A stretch of 64,000 nucleotides of DNA. Source: a virus. Made by a program: the position numbers and the translations under genes. The stretch covers positions 62,001 through 126,000 of IMG/VR virus record IMGVR_UViG_3300031576_000005. The stretch is one strand, 5' to 3'. The notes below the pieces were generated by a model. That model did not search any database and was not told where the DNA came from. It saw only the letters and a program-made list of their open reading frames with translations. Shown in pieces: positions 9,938-54,412 of the stretch; within the stretch, counting starts at the first letter, position 1; each line of letters begins with the position of its first letter.

Positions 9938-10910
9938 AGAATCAATTAAAGAATTAGTAAAACTAGCTAACTCACAGATTCCAAATCTGTTAACAAAATT
10001 GGGTATTGACTTTTCTCACAGTGGCCGCTGGCTTACAGCTCCCTGTAAAATACATGGCGGTGATAATAGACAAGCATTTTGCTTCAATTCGGATAAAGCA
10101 TATTGGAAATGCTTCACGCGAGGTTGCCAGGAAAAATTTGGTAATAATATTATAGGTGTTGTAAGCGGAGTATTGGGATATAATTTTAGCGATTCAATAG
10201 AATGGTTAATTAATAATATAGATGAGGATGTTAAAATCTTTCAAAAGATAGAGAGAAAAGAAGATAAAATTTATCCAGAAACATACCTACAGAGATTGTT
10301 TCGTAATGATTTCTATCTTAAACGTGGCTTTAAACAAGAAACGTTAAATGATTTTGAGCATGGTAAAGCCGAGGCTTATGCACTTGCTAATAGGATTGTA
10401 TTTCCAATTAGAGACGAAAATGGCATGATTAGGGGATTCTCTGGAAGGTGGGCCGGGACTGAAAAAATTATTGATAACGAAACCAAATGCTTTGATTCGC
10501 GTGGTAATAAAGTTGTTAAATGGAGACATACCTCTTTTTGTAAAAGTAATTATTTATATAATTATTATCGCGCCAAACAATATTGTCAGGAAGAATTAAT
10601 AATTGTTGAATCTATTGCTAACGTCATGAGATTTTGGGAATGTGGTAAAAAGAATTGTGTAGCCAGCTTCGGTAAGGATTTAAGTATTAGACAAGTTCAA
10701 CTAATCATTCCTTCAACAAAAAAAGTAATCTTGGCATATGATAATGATGAAGCTGGTGTTGATGGCTCAAGAAAAGCCTTTAAAACTCTTGAACCTTATA
10801 TTAATGTAGAAGTTATGTCGTCTAATAACAATCAAGATTGGGCTGAAAAGTCAAACGAAGAAGTAATAAGTATATATGAAAACCATAAATGTCAGCCCCA
10901 GTCGGCTTAA
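9927..10910 (+). CDS. DnaG-type DNA primase (zinc finger + Toprim)
   Basis: 327 residues, short for DnaG (about 600) but common in phages. The N-terminus carries a CHC2-like zinc site, C40-x2-H43 and C62-x4-C67 (WKCFTRGC). A Toprim domain follows with the conserved Glu in LIIVESIANV (about 232) and the acidic motif VILAYDNDEAG (about 283). It would make RNA primers for the adjacent helicase and polymerase. No helicase-binding C-domain is visible. It overlaps the helicase by 11 nt and the downstream nuclease by 35 nt, so the three are co-translated. Confidence 0.85.
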   Translation: MSNKESIKELVKLANSQIPNLLTKLGIDFSHSGRWLTAPCKIHGGDNRQAFCFNSDKAYWKCFTRGCQEKFGNNIIGVVSGVLGYNFSDSIEWLINNIDEDVKIFQKIERKEDKIYPETYLQRLFRNDFYLKRGFKQETLNDFEHGKAEAYALANRIVFPIRDENGMIRGFSGRWAGTEKIIDNETKCFDSRGNKVVKWRHTSFCKSNYLYNYYRAKQYCQEELIIVESIANVMRFWECGKKNCVASFGKDLSIRQVQLIIPSTKKVILAYDNDEAGVDGSRKAFKTLEPYINVEVMSSNNNQDWAEKSNEEVISIYENHKCQPQSA

Positions 10911-11685
10911 TACATTCCAAAAATGTAGGTGGATGTATTATTGTAAATATATTTTAAAGCTTCCAGATGAGGGCGGCGACAAGACCCGGCTCGGTTCGGT
11001 TATCCATGAAATATTTGAATTAATTTCCCGTCCAAGCAAACAAGAACAAAGAAAAAAATATATACTGCATAGCATTGAAACAAAAAAATTATACCCATCT
11101 CTTCATAGGCTATTTCAGAAAATATTAAATAGGTTCAAAATTCCAGTCGGAGAACTCAGAGAACTTGGAGAACAACTATTGATTAACGCCTTTTGTTCCG
11201 GATATGATATTAAATCAAAGGTTCTTGATGTAGAAAAAGATTTTCATATACAAGTCTCTGAGAACGTATATATAAAAGGTTTTATTGACAAAATACTAGA
11301 ATTAGATGATAATACCTTAGAGCTTATTGACTATAAATCTGGTGCTCCATTTAATGATGAAAAATGTAATAGTGAATTCCAGCCGTTTTTTTACAAATTA
11401 GCTGCGCAAAAACTTTTTCCAAAATATAAGAATTTTCTATTTTCATTTCATTTTTTAAAGAATAAAAAAATAATTACCGTATCTAAAGACAACGAAGAAC
11501 TTGCTAGATTTTTAAATTTTATTATAGCTCAAGGCATTTTAATGTTGAATTTTGATTTAAAAGATGCTAATTGTAATACGGGGTGGCATTGTAAATGGTG
11601 CAAATTCAAAGAACCTAATCCAGAATTAAATTATACCGGTTGCCCCGCTTATTTTGATAAAAACGGAGAATCTAGATTTAAATAA
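10876..11685 (+). CDS. PD-(D/E)XK exonuclease, RecB/Cas4-like with Fe-S Cys
   Basis: 269 residues. The start NVSPSRLNTFQKCRWMYY, the LGSVIHEIFE helix, the catalytic GFIDKI...LELIDYKSG (D...DxK) and a QxxFYKLAAQ helix define the RecB/Cas4 branch of PD-(D/E)XK nucleases. One Cys near the start (C17) and three near the end (CKWCKF...GCPAYF) match the four-Cys iron-sulfur cluster of Cas4/AddB-like proteins. In phages such enzymes process DNA ends for recombination. No other CRISPR gene is nearby, so an adaptation role is not supported. Confidence 0.8.
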   Translation: MKTINVSPSRLNTFQKCRWMYYCKYILKLPDEGGDKTRLGSVIHEIFELISRPSKQEQRKKYILHSIETKKLYPSLHRLFQKILNRFKIPVGELRELGEQLLINAFCSGYDIKSKVLDVEKDFHIQVSENVYIKGFIDKILELDDNTLELIDYKSGAPFNDEKCNSEFQPFFYKLAAQKLFPKYKNFLFSFHFLKNKKIITVSKDNEELARFLNFIIAQGILMLNFDLKDANCNTGWHCKWCKFKEPNPELNYTGCPAYFDKNGESRFK

Positions 11686-11686
11686 T

Positions 11687-11863
11687 ATGAAAACAATTGT
11701 AACTCTTTCTGCGCCAGATGCTTCCAGCAAAGATAAGGTATATGTAAAAGAAAATAATATTTGGTATTTGGATGGGAAAGAGGTAAAAAATAAGAAGTTT
11801 TGGCGGTTGTTAGATGATATTCATAACGGTTGGCAAGAATTTTATAAAGCTCCAAAGAAATAA
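11687..11863 (+). CDS. hypothetical small protein
   Basis: 58 residues, starting at the ATG of a TAATATG junction with the nuclease stop; the longer open frame (from 11654) lies inside the previous gene. The sequence is mixed and Lys-rich with a WYLDGKEV turn and a C-terminal aromatic stretch (WQEFYKAPKK). It sits between nuclease and polymerase genes in a tightly packed operon. No family recognised. Confidence 0.5.
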   Translation: MKTIVTLSAPDASSKDKVYVKENNIWYLDGKEVKNKKFWRLLDDIHNGWQEFYKAPKK

Positions 11864-11866
11864 TAT

Positions 11867-13567
11867 ATGCTTATAGACATCAGAACAGATTATAATTTAC
11901 TAGACTCCTTGATTAAAACTGAGGATTTGGCAAAATTTGCAAAAGAAAGTGGATGGAAATATGTTGGAATTGCCGACCTTGAAGCTGGTGGATTATTAGA
12001 TTTTTATCTTCAGTGTAAGGCCAATGATATCAAACCAATAATTGGGCTTCGTTTCTATGTTACTAATTCCTTAGAAGAATTCAGCGATTCTCAAATTATG
12101 TTATATGCTCAAAATCTTGAAGGATATCATAATCTTCTTAGATTATCAACTAAAGCTTCTTTAGGGGGTTCTGACAACGGAGGGGCTACCTTGCTAGTAG
12201 ATTGGCTAGAAGGAACGCTAGGAACGAATCTGGTGTGTTTATTGCCCATTGGAGAAAGTCCAAAGGAAGCTAAAACTATTGGTGGCGATAATGTAATTAA
12301 AAGATTGAAACAAATATATAAAAATAAACTATTTTGGGGATTGTATGATAGAGATACGGGGGGTGATGATATTTGGCTAAAAATCGCTAAAGACAATAAA
12401 ATTCCATATATTTTCCTTTCTGGTGCTAAATATTTCAAATCCGAAGACTTTAGGGCGTATAAAGTACTGCGAGCCATCAACGAAGGAAAAACTGTTGATA
12501 GAATATTTGAGGTTGTATATTTAGATGAAAGTATTGAGGTCGCGACTAAAAAGATGTATCACTATCAACACTATGAATATATGGTGAAGTTTTTATCTTT
12601 AATTGATATAGAAATTCCAACCCCCGGTTTAAAAGTCCCAAAATTTCCAATTCCCGATGGATTTAAAGATAGTTTTGAGTATTTAGCTGATTTATGCAGA
12701 GACGGATATAAGAAAAAAATATTGGAGTTCGATACTCCAGAGAAAGTGAAAGCGTGCAAAGAAAGGGTTGCTATAGAATTTGATGTTATAAAACGATGCG
12801 ATTTAGCTGATTATTTTTTGTTGGTTTATGATATTTGTCAATTTTGTTATGATAAAAAAATACCTCAAGGCTGGTCTCGTGGCTCTGTAGGAGGATGCTT
12901 GGTCGCTTTTCTAATGGACATTTCTAGAACTAATCCATTGGAATACGGACTTCTTTTTGAACGATTCTTAAATGAAGACCGAACAAAACCGGTTGAATTT
13001 AATGGCGAAAAATATTTAACCGATGCACCCGATATTGATTTAGATGTTGGTCAGATTCAACGACAGGAAGTAATTGAATTTTTACGACAGAAATACGGAA
13101 ATGTAGCTAAAATCTCTACTTATTCTACATTAAGTTCAAAAAATTGTATTAAAGATGTAATGAAAACATTCGGAAAATTTGAAAATGAAGCTGCTTATGT
13201 TGCTAAATTTGTCGAAGTTAGGTTTGGTAAAAGTGACAGTTTAGAAGAAACTTATAGTAAGTCTAGCGGATTTAAAGCCTGGGCTGATAAAAATAAAGAA
13301 ATATATGAAACGGCCTTAAAAATTGAAGATATTCGTAAAAATTGCTCAACCCACGCCGCTGGTTGTGTTGTTAGTGACCAACCAATAGAAAATTTTGCTC
13401 CGCTTCGTCTGGCAAATGCCACTAAAGACGGGGATTATAAACAAGATATTTGCATAGCTTATTCTCTTGATTATGCAGCTAAGGCCGGATTACTTAAAGT
13501 AGACATTTTGGGAATTCGGGGGTTAAATGTTTTATCTGATTGCATGGAGCTAGTGAATCATGAATGA
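11867..13567 (+). CDS. dnaE: DNA polymerase III alpha, N-terminal half (PHP remnant + palm)
   Basis: 566 residues matching the first half of bacterial DnaE. Residues 1-90 are the PHP domain fold, but its metal-binding His residues are replaced (NLLDSLI, IADLEAG), so this domain is probably inactive; NDIKPIIGLRFYV matches the family. The palm carries PDIDLD with catalytic D389 and D391, and the third catalytic Asp is D546 in KVDILGIRGLNVL. The frame stops at LVNHE*, exactly where DnaE normally continues into the finger region. The rest is encoded by the gene at 14592-16205; the two parts must assemble to make an active replicase. PolC is less likely because no exonuclease domain is present. 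Confidence 0.85.
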   Translation: MLIDIRTDYNLLDSLIKTEDLAKFAKESGWKYVGIADLEAGGLLDFYLQCKANDIKPIIGLRFYVTNSLEEFSDSQIMLYAQNLEGYHNLLRLSTKASLGGSDNGGATLLVDWLEGTLGTNLVCLLPIGESPKEAKTIGGDNVIKRLKQIYKNKLFWGLYDRDTGGDDIWLKIAKDNKIPYIFLSGAKYFKSEDFRAYKVLRAINEGKTVDRIFEVVYLDESIEVATKKMYHYQHYEYMVKFLSLIDIEIPTPGLKVPKFPIPDGFKDSFEYLADLCRDGYKKKILEFDTPEKVKACKERVAIEFDVIKRCDLADYFLLVYDICQFCYDKKIPQGWSRGSVGGCLVAFLMDISRTNPLEYGLLFERFLNEDRTKPVEFNGEKYLTDAPDIDLDVGQIQRQEVIEFLRQKYGNVAKISTYSTLSSKNCIKDVMKTFGKFENEAAYVAKFVEVRFGKSDSLEETYSKSSGFKAWADKNKEIYETALKIEDIRKNCSTHAAGCVVSDQPIENFAPLRLANATKDGDYKQDICIAYSLDYAAKAGLLKVDILGIRGLNVLSDCMELVNHE

Positions 13568-13811
13568 ATTTTATTCTGAAAAATCTCGACAGGCAAAAAT
13601 TAAAATATTATTTAAAGAAATATTCGAGTTATCTGAGATTTATGGTCTCGACATTTTTAAGCATGATAGTGAGTACGGGAAGTGTAGGTTGACGCCACAA
13701 ATGTTAGATTTTGTTATTAACGAGGGGCTAGATGTTGATTTAGATAAAATAAATAATAAAATAGAGAAAATTAAAGATATATTAAAGAATAATTATGAAA
13801 GCCCCAATTAA
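13560..13811 (+). CDS. hypothetical protein in the polymerase-splitting cassette
   Basis: 83 residues, beginning 4 nt before the polymerase stop codon and overlapping the methylase gene by 17 nt. It is charged and mostly helical (SRQAKIKILFKEIFELSEI, then a Lys/Asn-rich C-terminus). With the Dam gene it forms the about 1.04 kb insert that separates the two polymerase halves, so it is likely cargo or a helper of the inserted unit. No nuclease, transposase or recombinase motif is seen. Function unknown. Confidence 0.5.
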   Translation: MNEFYSEKSRQAKIKILFKEIFELSEIYGLDIFKHDSEYGKCRLTPQMLDFVINEGLDVDLDKINNKIEKIKDILKNNYESPN

Positions 13812-14592
13812 ATATTTTGGCGGCAAAGGAACTATGTACAAAGATATATTATTTCATTTTCCTTCAAACGAAACTTTTAACATATATATAGAGACATTTG
13901 GAGGTTCTGCGGCTATTTTGTTAGCCAATCCTAATTTTCCCAATGTTGAAATATATAACGATTTAGAGAAAAACGTTTATTCACTTTTTAAAGTATTGTC
14001 AAATAAAGCATTATTCCAAGAATTTAAAGAAAAATGCGATTTAACATATTATTGTAATGAAATAAGAAAAGATTTTAAATTAAGTTTAAAAAATGATGAA
14101 TTAACCTTGGTTGATAGAGCTTATAAATTTTTTATAGTTAATAGGACGTCTCATAATGGAATAGGAGGATTTTCTATTAATAATGTAATTCGACGTGGAA
14201 TGTCTAAATCTGTAAGTGATTTTCTATCATCTATAGATAGATTATCACAATTGCACGAACGACTATCTAGGGTTATTATAGAAAACCAAGACGCTTTTAA
14301 ATTGCTAGAAAAATATAATCAGCCAAATGTATTTGTTTATAGCGACCCCCCTTATCATCAAAGCACGAGAACCACCACAAGATACGATGTTGATATGAAT
14401 AATAATCAACAAAAACAATTTATTGATTTGATGTTAAATTCAAAAGCAAAAAATTTAATTAGCGGCTATCGAAATAGCGAATATGAAAGATTAGAATTAT
14501 CTGGTTGGAAAAGAATAGATTTTGAAAAACATACCGTTGATGGTAAACGACAACCAAAAACAGTCATAGAATCTCTTTGGAAAAATTATTAA
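13795..14592 (+). CDS. dam: D12-class adenine-N6 DNA methyltransferase (Dam-like)
   Basis: 265 residues, normal for the D12 class. The start KAPIKYFGGKG and ETFGGSAAI form the SAM-binding region, EIYNDLEKNVY is the acidic ligand motif, and the catalytic motif YSDPPY is near residue 183. It transfers a methyl group to adenine N6, and in phages often protects DNA from restriction. It is the second gene of the insert between the two polymerase halves; its TAA overlaps the restart ATG of the polymerase (TAATG). The target sequence cannot be read from the protein. Confidence 0.85.
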   Translation: MKAPIKYFGGKGTMYKDILFHFPSNETFNIYIETFGGSAAILLANPNFPNVEIYNDLEKNVYSLFKVLSNKALFQEFKEKCDLTYYCNEIRKDFKLSLKNDELTLVDRAYKFFIVNRTSHNGIGGFSINNVIRRGMSKSVSDFLSSIDRLSQLHERLSRVIIENQDAFKLLEKYNQPNVFVYSDPPYHQSTRTTTRYDVDMNNNQQKQFIDLMLNSKAKNLISGYRNSEYERLELSGWKRIDFEKHTVDGKRQPKTVIESLWKNY

Positions 14593-16205
14593 TGAATACT
14601 ATAGATTACATGGGGCTTAAGATTGCATTGGATGATGAAAAAACTTGGGATTATATATGCAAGGGCAGAAATTTAAAAGGTATTTTTCAATTAGAGACTG
14701 AGTCGGCTTCTAATGTTTTAAAAAAAATAAAACCTAAAAATATTAAAGACCTTTCTCTTGTAAATGCCTTAAATCGTCCGGGTTCACTAAAATTTACCGA
14801 AGAAATTTCCCTAATTAGAGATGGAAAAAAACAACCAGAATACACACACGAATGTCTTGAGCCATTTTTAAATGAAAGCTATGGATGTCTAATTTATCAA
14901 GAATCTGTTTTAAAGATTGCTCAAAAATTAGCCAACTTTAAATCAACGCAATCCAATTATTTATTAAAAGCTCTTGGTAAGAAAAATATGGACATTATGA
15001 AGGCTCAGAAAGAAGCTTTTATTAATGGAATGAAACAAAATAATTATCCAGAAGATGTCGCTACCAAATTATTTGCGTGGTTTGAAGATTTTGCAAATTA
15101 TAGCTTTAATAAAAGTCATTCGATTTCCTATAGTACAATGGGCTATATTTCCGCCTATATAAAACTTCATTATCCGTTGCAATTTTTCTGTTCTCTACTT
15201 AATTTTGCTCAATATGAACAAAAGCCATTAGATGAAATATCGGAAATTATATCAGAGCTTCCTGATTTCGGTCTAAAGATACTCCCTCCATCAATTACAA
15301 AAATATCTAACAAATTTACCATAGAAGATGGTTCTATTAGATATCCAATTGGTCTTATTAAAGGACTTGGTGATATAATTTTCGATAAGCTTAAAAGCAT
15401 TAATACCTCTCAAATTAATAGTTTAGATGGATTCTTAGAGAGTGTTTTTACGATTGGACTAAATAGTCGGAGCGTGGAATCTATTATTATTTCTGGCGGG
15501 GCTGACAATTTAAATATACCAAGAGAAGATGTGTTATTTTATTATTGGTTTTTATCAGAACTTAAACCAGATATCCTAGAAAGATTCTGGACATTTAAGA
15601 ACGGTAATCTATTCTCACAAGAATTAATATTTAAATTTCTAGAATATCGAGAACAAGTTTTCTCAAAATTAAAACAAGGAGATTTGTTTCAGCAAGATTT
15701 AATTAATAAGAAGCTAAAATATAAGAGCTATTTTAAAACCGAAACTACTCGAATCAAGACGTTAGAAAAAGTAAAAGAATATGTAGAATTAGTTAAACAT
15801 TACAAAGAAAACATCTCGTTTTCTAAGTTTTTATGGGAAACATATACATTGGGATTTAGTTATAATTGTAATTTCAGCCCCAAAATTAAAACTTTTAAAG
15901 ATTTGGATTTTCTACATGATGACACAAAGGCAAATTCTTGTGGCTTCGTTGATGAGGTAGAGTTTAAAGTTTCGGCAAAAGGGAATGATTATGCAAAGCT
16001 TAAGTTGAAATTTGACCGTAAAAGGGATATAATGTTATTTAATGACGTGTGTCAGTCTGCGAAAGGAAGAATTAAAGAAAAAAGTTTTGTTGGCTTCGGG
16101 GCGACAATGAAGAAAAGTAAGCTGAATGTTGACAGTATTAGAGTGATGGATGATGTAAGAGAAAAAATTGAATTCTATAACAAAAAGAAAAAAAATGAAG
16201 AATAA
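14592..16205 (+). CDS. dnaE: DNA polymerase III alpha, C-terminal half
   Basis: 537 residues from the ATG in the TAATG overlap with the methylase. It opens with NTIDYMGLKIALDD and GIFQLETESA, the DnaE segment that normally follows the third catalytic Asp, then runs through the fingers (NRPGSLKFTEE, YGCLIYQESV, LGKKNMDIM) and the SFNKSHSISYS motif. A C-terminal OB-like region (about 440-520, FKVSAKGNDYAKLKLKF) follows. It lacks catalytic Asp residues and so depends on the first half. Joining the two parts at LVN/TIDYMG restores a continuous, in-frame enzyme of roughly 1,090 residues. It overlaps the next OB-fold gene by 11 nt. Confidence 0.85.
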   Translation: MNTIDYMGLKIALDDEKTWDYICKGRNLKGIFQLETESASNVLKKIKPKNIKDLSLVNALNRPGSLKFTEEISLIRDGKKQPEYTHECLEPFLNESYGCLIYQESVLKIAQKLANFKSTQSNYLLKALGKKNMDIMKAQKEAFINGMKQNNYPEDVATKLFAWFEDFANYSFNKSHSISYSTMGYISAYIKLHYPLQFFCSLLNFAQYEQKPLDEISEIISELPDFGLKILPPSITKISNKFTIEDGSIRYPIGLIKGLGDIIFDKLKSINTSQINSLDGFLESVFTIGLNSRSVESIIISGGADNLNIPREDVLFYYWFLSELKPDILERFWTFKNGNLFSQELIFKFLEYREQVFSKLKQGDLFQQDLINKKLKYKSYFKTETTRIKTLEKVKEYVELVKHYKENISFSKFLWETYTLGFSYNCNFSPKIKTFKDLDFLHDDTKANSCGFVDEVEFKVSAKGNDYAKLKLKFDRKRDIMLFNDVCQSAKGRIKEKSFVGFGATMKKSKLNVDSIRVMDDVREKIEFYNKKKKNEE

Positions 16206-16503
16206 TTCTTGGCATGGAAAAGGACTGATTAAAACTATTAAAACAGTAGTAATTCCCGACCCACGAGGAGACTATGAAGTAACAGATTTAACGATTTCTA
16301 TTAAAAGAACAATAAAAGGCAAGGAAAAAATAACGTTGGTGCCGATAGAAGGATGGGGCGAAATGTCGGCCTGTTGCAAATCCTTTAAAGAGGGTGATAT
16401 GGTTTTTATTGAAGGACATTTTGCTAATAAGAAATGGACTAATAAAGAAAAAGTAGACATTAGCAAGAATTTGATAGTTTTAGAGAGAATTGAAAAGGCT
16501 TAA
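16195..16503 (+). CDS. small OB-fold protein, SSB-like
   Basis: 102 residues, starting inside the polymerase stop region. The pattern NNSWHGKGLIKTI, a beta pair around TISIKRTIKGKEKI, VPIEGWGEMSACC and FKEGDMVFIEGHF resembles a short single-strand DNA-binding OB fold, but there is no acidic SSB tail. A clearer SSB is encoded at 61323-61724. Its place directly after the polymerase suggests a fork accessory. It could also be a primosomal PriB-like OB protein; confidence in the exact role is low. Confidence 0.55.
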   Translation: MKNNSWHGKGLIKTIKTVVIPDPRGDYEVTDLTISIKRTIKGKEKITLVPIEGWGEMSACCKSFKEGDMVFIEGHFANKKWTNKEKVDISKNLIVLERIEKA

Positions 16504-16504
16504 A

Positions 16505-19500
16505 ATGAATAAAAAAAGAATATTATTCGTTAGTAATTTCTGTTTGGCTAATAGCGGATTCGGTAAATATCAAAAAAATTTATTATCGCGTCTTTATAAG
16601 ACTAAAAAATATGAGATTGCTGAACTTGCGTGCGGAGTTTCCGACCAAGACCCCATGACTCAGAAACTACCCTGGAAAGTTTATGGCGTCTTACCTAAAA
16701 CGCAAGAGGAAAGCATACGTTTTAATTCCGCTGATGAAAACACAAAAAGAGCGTATGCCTATGGATTATTTCGGTTTGATGAAGCTGTGTCTGACTTTAA
16801 ACCAGATATTGTTATATCCCACGAAGATGTCTGGCAAGCATCTAGCTGGTTAAAACAATCTAAGACTTGGGGTAAATTTATTCCAGTTCAATTTAATCCA
16901 TTTGACGCCGAACCAATGACAGACATATTTGTAGATTTTTTAAAAGACATTAAACATGTTTATACATATGGTAAATGGAGTCAGCAAATTGGTTTTAAAG
17001 CTAATCTTTTGCAAACTAAAGTTGCAACACTAGGAATCGACCAAAATATTTTTAAACCATTAGACGCTTTATATATAAAGCAATTAAGGATGAAGTGGGG
17101 AATTAAAGATACGGATTTTGTAGTTACGATGGTGGCTAGAAATCAAATTCGTAAGAAATATGATGCACTATTTGAGTCGTTAAATGAAATAGATAAAATA
17201 AATCCAGAATTATATAAAAATATTAAGATTCTGCCTTTCGCATTTTATCAAGACGAGCCGGGAATTAATTTTCCTAAATTTTGGAAGAGTCGCAATATAG
17301 ATGAATCAAAAATTATTACTCCTTATTTTTGTGAAGATATGAGGAATGAAAGCAGGGGTAATGGATGTAAAGCATATCACGTTGCCTCAAAGTATGAAGG
17401 CGAAGCCAAAGATTGTCCGATTTGTGGAACAAAAGGTTCTTGTCACACCCCATCTGTGATTAGTGGTTTTACCGACGAACAACTTAATGAAATTTATAAT
17501 ATTAGTGATTTATTCGTATTACCGACGACTAACGAAGGATTTTCAGTTCCAACTTGTACGACCCCAAATACAATTGTTATTGATAATAAATTCCAAGGAA
17601 AAAGAATAAAAGATATAATAATTGGTGATAAAATGATGGATTCAAATGGAAATGAAAATTTGGCTTTAGAAACTATAAAAAGAAAATATTCTGGAGATAT
17701 TTTATGTATTAAAGCCGCCGGTATACCAACAATTGAAGTCACTCCAGACCATCCGTTTTTAATAGAAAGAAATGAACAAAGAATTTTTATCGAAGCTAAG
17801 GAATTAAAATCAGGAGATAATTTATTGACTCCTATTCCGTCTAAAAATATAGATATTGAAAAAATTAAGTTAAAATCTTTTGGATTTGCTAATACCTATT
17901 TAAATACTCATATAGTCCCCAAAGATGGAAGTTTGGCAGATTTTGCTAAAAAAATTGGATATGCACCCTCCACGGTTTATAACAGTATATATAATTCTAA
18001 TAAAATTAAATCAAACGGACGACCAGTGGTTTCTAAAGAAACTTCTTCTTTAATCTTGAAAGAAGTTAATAGAAATATTTTAGAATTTAAAAAATGGGAA
18101 AATGATATTCCTGAATATTTATTTTTGAATGAAGATAATTTATTTGCTTTGGGGCTTTATGTAGCCGAGGGTTGTTGTAGCGAAGAGAATGAAGTAATGT
18201 TTACCTTTAATAAGAATGAAACAAAATATGCTGAAAAAAGCGAAAGATTATTAAAGCAAATGGGATGTTCTACGAAAATTTCTATAATAAAAAATACGTG
18301 TCGAGTTTGGGGGAGAGTAAGAGGAATTAAAAAATTTTTCCATATTTTTGGAACGTCTTGCGTTAGCAAATGTATTCCTGATTTTATTTTTAATTTGCCT
18401 CAACAAAAATTACAACATTTTTTATTAGGTTATTTTTGTGGAGATGGCTGTTTTTCCGGTAGGTATTGTGTTACAGTAAGCTTAAAATTAGCTTTTCAAA
18501 TTAGGTTTCTTTTATTGAAATGTGGATTTTTAACGAATTTCTATATTATTCAGCCCAGAAGAAATGTCGTGATAAAAGGAAAAGAATATAATTGTAAAAG
18601 ACAATATATGATATCTTTCGGAAGCCAACAATCTTTTTTGGATTTTTCTAGCTTAAAGAAAAACTCTATTTCTTCCAAAAAACATATTTTCTTTCCAAGC
18701 ATAAATAATAATTATTTATATACGCCTATTAAAAAAATAACAATAAAACAATATAATGGATATGTATACAATGTAGATACCGATAATAACTCTACCTTTT
18801 TGATTAATGGGGTTGTTTCACACAATTGTGAGGCTTTGTCTGCGGGTAAAATGGTAGCTGTAACAAATTATAGCACTTGCGCCGAATTAGCAAAAGATAG
18901 TGGCGCTGGTTTTTTATTTGATTGTTCGCTTTCAGTTGAACATGGAACCTTTTTTTATAAAGCTAACATTACTCCACGCGAAATTGCTAACCAAATAAAC
19001 AAAATTTATAATATCAAGCCAGAAGTTCGTAAAGAACTAGAAAAAAAAGCTAGGGAATATGCTGTCACTGTTCATAATTACGATAAACTAGCAAAAGATT
19101 GGGAAAATGAAATAGATGCAATGCAGGTATTAGAAAATGTTGATTGGAATACTGAGCCAGTGATTAAAAATCCAAATCCCAACGGTTTGATGCCACCTTG
19201 TTCTGATGATATATCTTGGGTCTGTGCTTTATATAAAAATATCTTAGACGCTGATGTTATTAAAGAAACAAATGGTAAGCCAATAGAAAATCAAGGCGTT
19301 CAATACTGGATGATGGAAATCCAACAAAAAAAGCGTACTAAAGAACAAATCGAAGAATATTTTAGACAAATAGCAAATGAAGATTTAAAGAAGAAAACGG
19401 TGGATATTAGGACATTACTTGACCCGCTTGATACAAAAAGAATGTTGTATGTAATGGCGGTCTCAGCCGGAGATAATTTTTTAAGTACGGCTATAGTCAA

Positions 19501-19765
19501 ATCACTTAAAGAAAAATATCCAGACCATTCTATTTATATTGCCTCGAAACCAGAATTTGAAGGTATTTGGAAAGGGAATCCAGATATTAAGAGATGGCTT
19601 CCATTTGGTGATGCTATGTTACAATATGGATGGGGGATAGATAGATGGGAAAAAGGAATTTTTGATATTGTATTAACTCCAACTATTTTGACTCAAATGA
19701 ATTCCCCGAATTGGCACAATAACGGGAAAACTGAATCTTTTTTAATTAACGGAGGTACAAAGTGA
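16505..19765 (+). CDS. GT4 glycosyltransferase + GT9 N-half, intein-containing
   Basis: 1,086 residues from the ATG one base after the previous stop. Residues about 1-350 and 775-910 form a GT4 glycosyltransferase (RILFVSNFCLANSGFGKY; EGFSVPT/CEALSAGKM). A 424-residue intein (351-774) splits the EGFSVPT-CEALSAG motif, exactly the donor-binding loop. After the GT4 part, the C-terminal 120 residues (MLYVMAVSAGDNFLSTAIV, YPDHSIYIASKP) look like the N-half of a GT9 heptosyltransferase whose C-half is the next gene. It is a sugar transferase of unknown substrate that sits, unusually, inside the replication operon. Confidence 0.8.
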   Translation: MNKKRILFVSNFCLANSGFGKYQKNLLSRLYKTKKYEIAELACGVSDQDPMTQKLPWKVYGVLPKTQEESIRFNSADENTKRAYAYGLFRFDEAVSDFKPDIVISHEDVWQASSWLKQSKTWGKFIPVQFNPFDAEPMTDIFVDFLKDIKHVYTYGKWSQQIGFKANLLQTKVATLGIDQNIFKPLDALYIKQLRMKWGIKDTDFVVTMVARNQIRKKYDALFESLNEIDKINPELYKNIKILPFAFYQDEPGINFPKFWKSRNIDESKIITPYFCEDMRNESRGNGCKAYHVASKYEGEAKDCPICGTKGSCHTPSVISGFTDEQLNEIYNISDLFVLPTTNEGFSVPTCTTPNTIVIDNKFQGKRIKDIIIGDKMMDSNGNENLALETIKRKYSGDILCIKAAGIPTIEVTPDHPFLIERNEQRIFIEAKELKSGDNLLTPIPSKNIDIEKIKLKSFGFANTYLNTHIVPKDGSLADFAKKIGYAPSTVYNSIYNSNKIKSNGRPVVSKETSSLILKEVNRNILEFKKWENDIPEYLFLNEDNLFALGLYVAEGCCSEENEVMFTFNKNETKYAEKSERLLKQMGCSTKISIIKNTCRVWGRVRGIKKFFHIFGTSCVSKCIPDFIFNLPQQKLQHFLLGYFCGDGCFSGRYCVTVSLKLAFQIRFLLLKCGFLTNFYIIQPRRNVVIKGKEYNCKRQYMISFGSQQSFLDFSSLKKNSISSKKHIFFPSINNNYLYTPIKKITIKQYNGYVYNVDTDNNSTFLINGVVSHNCEALSAGKMVAVTNYSTCAELAKDSGAGFLFDCSLSVEHGTFFYKANITPREIANQINKIYNIKPEVRKELEKKAREYAVTVHNYDKLAKDWENEIDAMQVLENVDWNTEPVIKNPNPNGLMPPCSDDISWVCALYKNILDADVIKETNGKPIENQGVQYWMMEIQQKKRTKEQIEEYFRQIANEDLKKKTVDIRTLLDPLDTKRMLYVMAVSAGDNFLSTAIVKSLKEKYPDHSIYIASKPEFEGIWKGNPDIKRWLPFGDAMLQYGWGIDRWEKGIFDIVLTPTILTQMNSPNWHNNGKTESFLINGGTK
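17555..18826 (+). mobile_element. intein with LAGLIDADG homing endonuclease
   Basis: The in-frame insert begins with Cys (CTTPNTIVID) and ends with VVSHN followed by Cys at +1, the residues needed for protein splicing. Block B is VTPDHPFLI and GYVYNVDTDNNSTFLING is the C-terminal region. Two LAGLIDADG motifs lie inside (FALGLYVAEGCC at about 18140, FLLGYFCGDGCF at about 18420), and a small helix-turn-helix-like stretch (DFAKKIGYAPSTVYNSI) comes before them. 424 residues is a normal full-length intein, and no stop or frameshift is seen, so both splicing and homing may be active. Confidence 0.9.
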
Positions 19766-20952
19766 GATTGATTGAAGTTTATTCCCAGTTCTGTGGCGTT
19801 AAACCCTCGGAACCCTATCTTAACGAAGAATATTATCCTGTTCCAATTTCTTCCTATGTTGTGGTCCATAATGGTTCAGGTATGCCTAGTAAGTCATACG
19901 ACAATTTTAGCGAAGTAACAAAACATATAAAAATGTCGGTCGTACAAGTTGGTGGCAAGGATGACCCATTATTAGAAAATGTGGTAGATTTGCGTGGGAA
20001 AACAACATGGGGGCAAACTTTCTATTTAATCAAAAATTCTTTATTATTCCTCGGTTGTGATAGTATTTGTAACCATATGGCCAGCGCTCTTAATATTCCT
20101 AGAATAGCCCTATTTGGAGCTACAAGCCCATTAACCTGTGGCGGATATTGGAACAAAGAAACCGCAATTGAGTTGACGCCAACCGATATGCAAGGATGTG
20201 CAGCTCCGTGCCATAATTCTCAGTGTATTCGTGCTATAAAATGTATTAATTCTATAACACCAGAATCTATTCTAGAAAAAATATCCTCAATCTTAGGTAA
20301 GGAGGCGGTCACTCCCGTAGAAATATTACATACTGGAAAGCTTACTAACACAAGTATTGTAGAATGGATTCCAATGTCAGTTAATCAAGAGACATTCAAT
20401 GTTTTTAGAATTCTACAAGGTGTTATCAGCCTGAGAGCTGATTTACATACACCAGACTTAAATGAATTATCTAATTTTTGTAATCAGACGCCACTTAAAT
20501 ATATACTTTTAATAAAACCAGGTGACTTTACCAAATTCTCAATCCACCACAGTAAAGTAGAGCAATTGTTGATTTTAGTAGACTCTTCTACTATTGCACA
20601 CGGAATTGCTTTAATGAAAGACTTGACAAAAAAGCTATATAAGGTTAGAATTATCTCAAGATTAGACCATGCTGTTTTTAATGATTTTAAGCTAGATATA
20701 ATGGATTATCCGCCAATAGCGAGACTAACAGAATATGAATATACCAAGGAAGAATGTAGTAAATTGGTTGGCCAAAACGTAGAAGTATCTAGCTTGAGAA
20801 AGATAGTTGGAAATAATGGAAAAGCATATATGACTTTTCACGATGCACTAAAAGATAAAAATTCTATTGAAATAATGAAAAATACTGCTATAATAACAAT
20901 AGAGGAAGAACACCTCAAAGAACTACAGTTTTTAACAATTAGAAAATATTAA
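19762..20952 (+). CDS. GT9 heptosyltransferase-like C-half plus unknown domain
   Basis: 396 residues with a GTG start at 19762, overlapping the previous stop (GTGA) and preceded by a strong GGAGGT site. Residues 1-190 match the C-terminal half of GT9 LPS heptosyltransferases (YVVVHNGSGMPSKSYDN, FLGCDSICNHMASALNIPRIALFGA, then a CAAPC...CIRAIKC segment). The N-half is at the end of the upstream protein, so the enzyme is split in two chains, or joined by a -1 frameshift at ACAAAG. The C-terminal 200 residues are unassigned. Confidence 0.7.
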   Translation: MRLIEVYSQFCGVKPSEPYLNEEYYPVPISSYVVVHNGSGMPSKSYDNFSEVTKHIKMSVVQVGGKDDPLLENVVDLRGKTTWGQTFYLIKNSLLFLGCDSICNHMASALNIPRIALFGATSPLTCGGYWNKETAIELTPTDMQGCAAPCHNSQCIRAIKCINSITPESILEKISSILGKEAVTPVEILHTGKLTNTSIVEWIPMSVNQETFNVFRILQGVISLRADLHTPDLNELSNFCNQTPLKYILLIKPGDFTKFSIHHSKVEQLLILVDSSTIAHGIALMKDLTKKLYKVRIISRLDHAVFNDFKLDIMDYPPIARLTEYEYTKEECSKLVGQNVEVSSLRKIVGNNGKAYMTFHDALKDKNSIEIMKNTAIITIEEEHLKELQFLTIRKY

Positions 20953-52589: not shown

Positions 52590-53807
52590 TCATTTATTAA
52601 ACCATTCTCCAAATATTCTTATTATATAATTTAAATCTTCTTTTGTTAAAAAAGAATGACATCCTATATAAAATCCTCGTTCAAGAATTTCCCACGACAT
52701 TGGAAAGTTAGTCCTAAAATTTATTTTAGTACCAAAATATTTTTCAGTTATGGGGGTATAAAGCGGCAAAATTTCTCTCGTCTCTATGCCATTCTTTTCT
52801 AAAAAATGTATTAATTCCCATTTTTCTCCATGCGGCGAACGAATTGGAAGCATCATATGCCTAGCCTCTTCTTCTCTGGAAAATTTAGGCAAAATTAATG
52901 GAAATTGGCTTAGTTCTTTGATTAAATATTCTGAATTTTCTTTCCTCTTTTGTAATTGTCCTAAAAAGTCATCTTCCAGCATTGATAATGCAAATGCCGA
53001 TTCGGTTTCCCCCAGTCTAAAATTCAGTCCCGGTTGGACGAATTTGAATCTCTTACTTGTTATATCTCTTAAAATAGCTCCTTCTACATCGTCATCGTCT
53101 ATACAGGTATATTCAGGGCTTCTACCATGATTAACGTAGCTCCTTGCATGGATTATCAAACGTTCGTCATTTGTTCCGATAAAACCACCGCACCCACCAG
53201 CAACAAGTAGATGGGAAATATATGTACTCCATGCGGTAAAATGAGCAAAGCTTTCTGGATACTGAGAATTGAACCTACTACAAATGTTCTCGCATGAATC
53301 CAAAATAAAGAAAATATCTTTATCGTATAAATCAATTATCTCTTTAATCCTTAGTCCATCAACCGGTCTCCCCATTAATGAAGATGGCATAACCGCGAAT
53401 ATATCTCTAGAATGCTCTTTTAATTTACTCTCTAAATCTGTATAACAAATATTATAATTTGCACCGACATCGACAAATAATGGTTCAAATCCGTTGGAAG
53501 TAATTACATTGCAGTCACTTATAAAAGTTGTTGCCGGTAAAACAATATATTTACGTTTGGCCGCTGCTTCTGGATACAAATTTTTTAAAACTCCAATAGA
53601 AGCGTAGAGCGCCGCCGTTCCGCTAGAACAGAAAACAGCATATTTCACCCCATTCATCTCAGCAAATAATTTCTCAAGTTTTTGGGAAATCGGACCATAT
53701 GTTAATCGTCTGGACTTAATAATCTGCTTTAGGTATTTATCAAGCCCCTTAGCTGGATACCAATCGCCGAATCCTATAGATTTAACAGGCTTTTTTACTT
53801 CACTCAT
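52590..53807 (-). CDS. DegT/ColD-like PLP 3-dehydrase (His for Lys)
   Basis: 405 residues. DegT/DnrJ/EryC1/StrS fold: CSSGTAALYASIGVL, LPATTFISDCNVI, ILDSCENICSRF (the PLP-binding Asp). The lysine that holds PLP in aminotransferases is replaced by H199 in STYISHLLVAGGCGG. In ColD and DdhC (RfbH) the same Lys-to-His change turns the enzyme into a 3-dehydrase that removes the C3 hydroxyl of a 4-keto-6-deoxy sugar. With the window's GDP-mannose 4,6-dehydratase this suggests a 3,6-dideoxy-4-keto sugar. DdhC's extra Fe-S cysteines are not seen, favouring the ColD type. Confidence 0.75.
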   Translation of the reverse strand: MSEVKKPVKSIGFGDWYPAKGLDKYLKQIIKSRRLTYGPISQKLEKLFAEMNGVKYAVFCSSGTAALYASIGVLKNLYPEAAAKRKYIVLPATTFISDCNVITSNGFEPLFVDVGANYNICYTDLESKLKEHSRDIFAVMPSSLMGRPVDGLRIKEIIDLYDKDIFFILDSCENICSRFNSQYPESFAHFTAWSTYISHLLVAGGCGGFIGTNDERLIIHARSYVNHGRSPEYTCIDDDDVEGAILRDITSKRFKFVQPGLNFRLGETESAFALSMLEDDFLGQLQKRKENSEYLIKELSQFPLILPKFSREEEARHMMLPIRSPHGEKWELIHFLEKNGIETREILPLYTPITEKYFGTKINFRTNFPMSWEILERGFYIGCHSFLTKEDLNYIIRIFGEWFNK

Positions 53808-54412
53808 AAATAATATTTTTCTTTCATTTTATTAAATATATGAAATGTCATGGTAGTATCTTCTATCGCTCCGTGAATTCCACTATCTCGTAAATTTTCA
53901 ACATTATAAGTTTTAACTAAAAAATTCAAATTAAACTTTATGCCCCGCGCCATAATATTCTTTATCCTAGTAGAATATTTAAAATACATTTCCTCTTGAT
54001 TATAAAGATTCCCCAAGGCTAGTCCCTTATGCAAGGTTCCAACATCAAGCCAATTTTCTATCTTTGGTCGAGGCAAGCCATATCGATTACATTCTTTTTC
54101 TAGCAGAGGAAAATCATACGCGACATTATTGAGACCGGCAACTATATCATCTCCCAGAAAATTAATTACTTGTTCGCACGCCAGCTTTGGGTCTATTCCT
54201 TCCTTCTCGCACATTTCTGTGGTGATTCCGTTAATTTCGCTAGCCCCATATGGAACTTCCATTTTTTGATTTACCAAAGTCCTATAACTATCTACAATTT
54301 TATTGTCTCGAATTCTTAAACAACCATGTTCGACAATTCTAGCCTCGGTCAAATCAAGCCCCGTCGTCTCGCTATCATACAGGGTGTATGAGGTTACTTC
54401 TTTAATTTTCAT
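53804..54412 (-). CDS. DEDDh 3'-5' exonuclease, DnaQ-like
   Basis: 202 residues. YDSETTGLD carries D13 and E15, GLNNVAYDFPLLEKECNRYG the second Asp region, and SGIHGAIEDTTMTF the final H...D pair. This is the proofreading exonuclease family (epsilon). Because the split polymerase has no exonuclease domain and a dead PHP domain, this protein probably proofreads for it. It overlaps the ColD-like gene by 4 nt. Confidence 0.85.
   Translation of the reverse strand: MKIKEVTSYTLYDSETTGLDLTEARIVEHGCLRIRDNKIVDSYRTLVNQKMEVPYGASEINGITTEMCEKEGIDPKLACEQVINFLGDDIVAGLNNVAYDFPLLEKECNRYGLPRPKIENWLDVGTLHKGLALGNLYNQEEMYFKYSTRIKNIMARGIKFNLNFLVKTYNVENLRDSGIHGAIEDTTMTFHIFNKMKEKYYL

Follow-up and report, generated by a model that had tools for sequence, protein, structure and literature searches.

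A family C DNA polymerase gene divided around a Dam methylase cassette in a viral contig, and its probable product, a two-chain replicase

The DNA analysed here, called the window, is the stretch of 64,000 nucleotides formed by bases 62001-126000 of a viral contig of 159,142 bases (IMG/VR record IMGVR_UViG_3300031576_000005). It carries a gene for the alpha subunit of DNA polymerase III (dnaE), a family C replicase, whose two halves, dnaE-N and dnaE-C, are separated by an 83-residue open reading frame (ORF) and a gene for a Dam-like methylase. The arrangement is best explained, with good confidence, by a two-chain Pol III alpha encoded in coupled adjacent cistrons and assembled non-covalently across palm and fingers, the Dam cassette being lodged in a tolerant linker. 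The two cistrons, which are probably coupled in translation, would yield alpha-N, containing the PHP domain, palm, thumb and every catalytic Asp, and alpha-C, containing the fingers, HHH and OB domains. Both chains would bind over the palm/fingers interface and act as one polymerase. The break would thus sit in a linker that tolerates it, and the cassette in the gap would be expressed along with the replication operon and deliver a methylase.

Position of the break and content of the two halves

An earlier reading of the sequence alone had claimed that removal of the insert (13559-14597) joins both parts in frame, and in silico excision gives a single open frame, 1,099 residues long and with only a terminal stop, reading ...CMELVN-TIDYMGLK... 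at the junction. Between the third catalytic Asp and the conserved aromatic residue that opens the fingers, the joined protein has 34 residues and unsplit phage DnaE 31-39 (n=78, non-redundant). The joined linker is of normal length, and the joined DnaE has neither gap nor surplus. In the sequence alignment dnaE-N ends at residue 574 of E. coli alpha and the match of dnaE-C starts at 589. The predicted structure of dnaE-N (pLDDT 89, pTM 0.91) aligns over its full length with residues 7-575 of E. coli alpha, with a Z of 33 and a root mean square deviation of 3.4 over 541 residues. That of dnaE-C (pLDDT 83) corresponds to E. coli alpha beginning at 573, with a Z of about 20 across 320 residues, and has in addition an OB-like domain at about 443-522. 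The break site is what we take to be the palm/fingers linker, assuming the usual domain borders of E. coli alpha.

The proposal that the catalytic aspartates stay in the first half while the fingers go to the second agrees with the Pfam domains, PHP and palm in dnaE-N and fingers and HHH in dnaE-C, and with the placement of D391, D393 and D546, all within dnaE-N and invariant in 40 relatives. Both halves retain the residues that are invariant across these relatives, and together they hold the PHP domain, the palm with three catalytic Asp and the fingers of a family C polymerase. It is improbable that dnaE is a decaying pseudogene and that a host polymerase copies the phage: the broken gene would suit that reading, but both halves are long and intact with their conserved residues kept, the operon is intact with helicase, primase and single-stranded DNA-binding protein (SSB), and no other polymerase was found. 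The dnaE halves are the sole family C match in the 159-kb contig, and neither Pol A nor Pol B was matched in it, the contig being possibly incomplete. Still harder to sustain is an assembly artefact that fused unrelated reads. The locus comes from one metagenomic contig without a second assembly; however, each junction coincides with the end of a gene, where codons overlap, and the length of the joined protein is normal, a combination that a chimera would seldom give.

Table 1. Features of the split dnaE locus and a separate exonuclease gene (window coordinates)
Feature	Position	Strand	Basis
dnaE-N, 566 residues: PHP, palm and thumb domains of Pol III alpha	11867..13567	+	Pfam PF02811, PF07733; predicted fold
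Catalytic Asp codons of dnaE-N	13037-13039, 13043-13045, 13502-13504	+	
TGAAT, left copy	13554..13558	+	sequence
83-residue ORF, no assigned family; start overlaps dnaE-N stop	13560..13811	+	ORF list
D12-class adenine-specific DNA methyltransferase (Dam-like), 265 residues, DPPY intact	13795..14592	+	PF02086, phrog_56
dnaE-C, 537 residues: fingers, HHH, C-terminal OB-like domain	14592..16205	+	PF17657, PF14579; predicted fold
TGAAT, right copy	14593..14597	+	sequence
DnaQ-like 3'-5' exonuclease, separate gene, outside the dnaE split	53804..54412	-	PF00929

The cassette in the gap and the search for rejoining signals

The replication operon runs in the order helicase, primase, PD-(D/E)XK nuclease, small ORF, dnaE-N, 83-residue ORF, Dam, dnaE-C and SSB. 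The insert, nearly all of it coding, consists of the two genes that the sequence-only reading had placed there, and the coordinates which that reading gave are correct (Table 1). The overlapping start and stop codons to which that reading drew attention are present, with 8 nt shared by dnaE-N and the 83-residue ORF, 17 nt by this ORF and Dam, and 1 nt by Dam and dnaE-C, where the ATG of the latter lies in TAATG. Such overlaps are, however, the general rule throughout the replication operon, so those of the insert are nothing special. The TGAAT pentamer likewise occurs at both junctions, but its value as an insertion scar found no support. The window contains 115 copies of it, and an in-frame repeat of at least 5 nt at such junctions has a P that varies, with the stretch used for comparison, from 0.08 to 0.50. 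A target-site duplication was consequently rejected, the repeat being at chance level, and no prominent terminal or inverted repeats were seen at the insert ends.

The GC content of the insert (0.277) is in the lowest 0.5% among equal-length stretches of the window. The Dam product scores 73 bits against PF02086 (cut-off 22) and carries DPPY at residues 184-187, as a D12-class N6-adenine methyltransferase should. Its closest relatives are 62% identical in a 310-kb viral contig, 49% in a 635-kb phage record and 47% in a 57-kb contig. In the records bearing these Dam relatives, the queried DnaE half turned up no relative, an empty search that is weak evidence, and a scan with Dam alone gave a few loci, none with dnaE. 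The 83-residue ORF matched nothing in Pfam or PHROG, and neither phage records nor viral contigs yielded a relative of it; kinship with a 123-residue ORF upstream of the closest Dam was considered and dropped, as no similarity was seen. We infer that the cassette is foreign and was acquired by lateral transfer. The same phage has a second Dam-like methylase, on the minus strand (L008:6732-7532, contig 148732-149532), 30% identical to that of the cassette.

Group I or II introns, split inteins or recoding might rejoin the halves, since such elements are frequent in phage polymerase genes, yet there is very little chance that they do so here. A Rfam scan of 10000-20000 around the insert revealed no intron RNA, and Pfam revealed no intein domain in either half. 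Past the region of homology dnaE-N extends by 2 residues and dnaE-C by about 10 of low confidence, too few for the N tail and C head of an intein. Among the DnaE loci fetched, 12 carry insertions whose ends resemble those of inteins, at the FNK/SHS site in the fingers; they lend the idea of rejoining some plausibility and serve as a control. Several of them are fractured genes, in which the N tails measure about 92 residues or more and the C heads about 41-59. The intein-like or fractured loci at that site are L012, L018, L020, L046, L049, L061, L075, L083, L084, L220, L224 and L232. Recoding of the TGA that ends dnaE-N was discarded, because readthrough would meet a TAA 12 codons on, and the almost wholly coding insert also tells against rejoining. 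A mechanism that joins the halves was one finding by which the sequence-only reading could have been overturned; with no intron, intein or recoding signal found, its claim that the halves are translated separately gains support. Since no rejoining element was found, a non-covalent association of the halves is most likely, of the kind reported for the divided NrdA of phage Aeh1 and gp43 of Aeromonas phage 25 (PMC2988022).

Breaks at the palm/fingers joint among relatives

The initial scans with DnaE alignments yielded 160 viral loci, and the split counts, drawn from the best-scoring loci among the matches listed, do not represent prevalence. The palm/fingers joint is the site of a split in at least 57 loci, including the window, its duplicate copy L001 and phage records. 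In at least 51 a DnaQ-like exonuclease, identified by PF00929 in the four loci checked, occupies the gap, in most cases along with a small ORF (e.g. L024, L107, L117). The gap holds a 49-residue ORF in Rossellomorea phage phiT1 (PV767480, gp20/gp19/gp18) and a 78-residue ORF in L131, and in L050 (same contig as L121) the halves overlap with no insert. A search of relatives for an unsplit dnaE, which had been suggested as a check, was positive: all 74 newly fetched loci of the clade nearest to the window DnaE that cover the joint are unsplit, as are the 80 cellular DnaE from a genome scan (80/80). The possibility that all relatives are split alike, which would have told against the proposed insertion, is therefore removed by the nearest clade. 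A megablast against phage records gave no match.

In this unsplit clade, which includes L026, L028, L055, L065 and L093, DnaE has no fused PHP domain, and a PHP-like ORF is often found separately upstream. Interruptions of dnaE at other sites occur in Bacillus phage KLEB27-3 and Alicyclobacillus phage MMB025 (L017:5470-9840, L009:2153-6515), the parts being separated by an HNH or other endonuclease.

Quick trees of 106 and 55 rows, whose root was not inferred, both joined the window DnaE to the unsplit PHP-less clade, with SH-aLRT values of 96 and 99. Constraining it into the DnaQ-split clade cost 38.7 log-likelihood units (approximately unbiased (AU) test, p-AU 0.0003), the AU tests having been chosen once the tree had been seen. 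The spacing between F367 and D389 also separates the groups: it is mostly 9 in canonical phage DnaE, 14 in the DnaQ-split clade (39/39) and 22-24 in the unsplit PHP-less clade (49/49), while in the window it is 21. The window thus fails to belong to the DnaQ-split clade both in the AU test and in its palm segment (21, not 14). The palm insertion motifs of the window and the unsplit PHP-less clade are related (NGEKYLTD and NGETYLDG). Hence, as tree and palm indel put the window beside an unsplit clade, its break probably arose independently of the other splits at the joint. Well-supported branches force five changes between split and unsplit states, of which the simplest reading would be four breaks and one re-fusion (L116). 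The DnaE of this locus (L116:4426-7029) is unbroken, nested within the DnaQ-split clade and possibly re-fused. A chimeric origin of the halves was not supported, the N-half tree joining the unsplit clade and the C-half trees being compatible with it.

Several observations weaken these conclusions. With the N half alone the AU test against grouping with the DnaQ-split clade gives a p of 0.056, and the C-half trees by themselves do not fix the placement, being compatible with the unsplit clade. The window DnaE is only about 35-39% identical to the closest DnaE, and single-protein scans found no close relative of either half. Moreover, the contig is one metagenomic assembly and possibly incomplete.

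The history of the locus could also have run in the reverse order, with dnaE first split at the palm/fingers joint and then entered by the Dam cassette as a passenger, not as the cause, a sequence of events to which we give a substantial, though less than even, chance. Such an order bears only on the past of the locus and would fit the two-chain mechanism equally. Because the same joint is broken elsewhere with other cargo or none (no insert in L050, a small unrelated ORF in phiT1 and L131, DnaQ in at least 51 loci), the cassette may have entered a gene already split. The 83-residue ORF could be an earlier occupant of the gap, and a like ambiguity is noted for gp43 in a review (PMC2988022). 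Against this, the ends in the window are clean, with 38 linker residues including the extras of both chains, whereas the median of the DnaQ-split set is 60. Clean ends nevertheless do not settle the order of events, since phiT1 is equally clean (37 residues), and the Dam cassette may either have made the break itself or have moved into an older one.

Neighbouring features, known systems and implications

The segment QGDLF at residues 362-366 of dnaE-C (15675..15689, plus strand) is presumably a candidate motif of the clamp-binding kind and lies in a low-confidence loop of the predicted model. The DnaQ-like exonuclease of Table 1 is a possible proofreading partner of DnaE. Elsewhere in the window, the EGFSVPT/CEALSAG motif of a group 1 glycosyltransferase is broken up by a 424-residue intein with a LAGLIDADG domain (17555-18826, inside 16505-19765).

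Split phage enzymes that work as two chains have been described. NrdA of Aeromonas phage Aeh1, split by insertion of mobE, is active as two chains (PMC2988022). Like the window DnaE it is an essential phage enzyme made as two separately translated chains with an inserted gene between them, but it is a ribonucleotide reductase and its insert is an HNH homing endonuclease. In Aeromonas phages 25 and 44RR, gp43A and gp43B co-purify and are active (PMC2988022). Here too a replicative DNA polymerase is in two chains and the cause of the split is ambiguous; however, gp43 belongs to family B and its gap holds a seg-type endonuclease or an untranslated spacer. The dnaE of phiT1, a cultured phage, is, like that of the window, a family C polymerase broken at the palm/fingers joint, but it has only a 49-residue ORF in the gap and belongs to another DnaE clade; its genes are annotated, and no published report of the split was found. 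The contigs with dnaE-N, DnaQ and dnaE-C share with the window the joint, the two chains and a DNA-acting cargo, and differ in that the cargo is a proofreading exonuclease, the C half is mostly extended at its N terminus and the clade is separate. In cyanobacteria DnaE is also encoded in two pieces, with the break in the fingers near FNKSHS. These pieces are rejoined by trans-splicing, whereas the window has no intein and is broken at a different site.

One coding region of the relatives is two in the window, as in genes in pieces, and the insert consists of the 83-residue ORF and a D12 methylase. As it is without an endonuclease, the window departs from the homing-endonuclease kind of such genes. 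By analogy, the window dnaE resembles the genes-in-pieces phage enzymes, and what appears new is that a family C replicase is concerned and that a methylase replaces the homing endonuclease. No report of a two-chain family C polymerase without an intein was found in the literature searched, which is weak evidence of novelty as most subscription journals lay outside the search.

Split replicative polymerases of known activity have been reported for family B (gp43). If the halves described here cooperate, Pol III alpha could be dismantled at a single joint, its catalytic part coming apart from its fingers part, and the assembly, regulation and evolution of the replicase would become directly testable. 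The recurrence of the break at one joint with varied cargo raises the question of whether selection favours this site or the site simply tolerates a break. More speculatively, and at less than even odds, the palm/fingers joint of phage Pol III alpha may be a recurrent natural break point that gives rise to two-chain replicases with exchangeable DNA-acting cargo such as a proofreading exonuclease or an adenine methylase, perhaps co-translated and working with the polymerase on new DNA.
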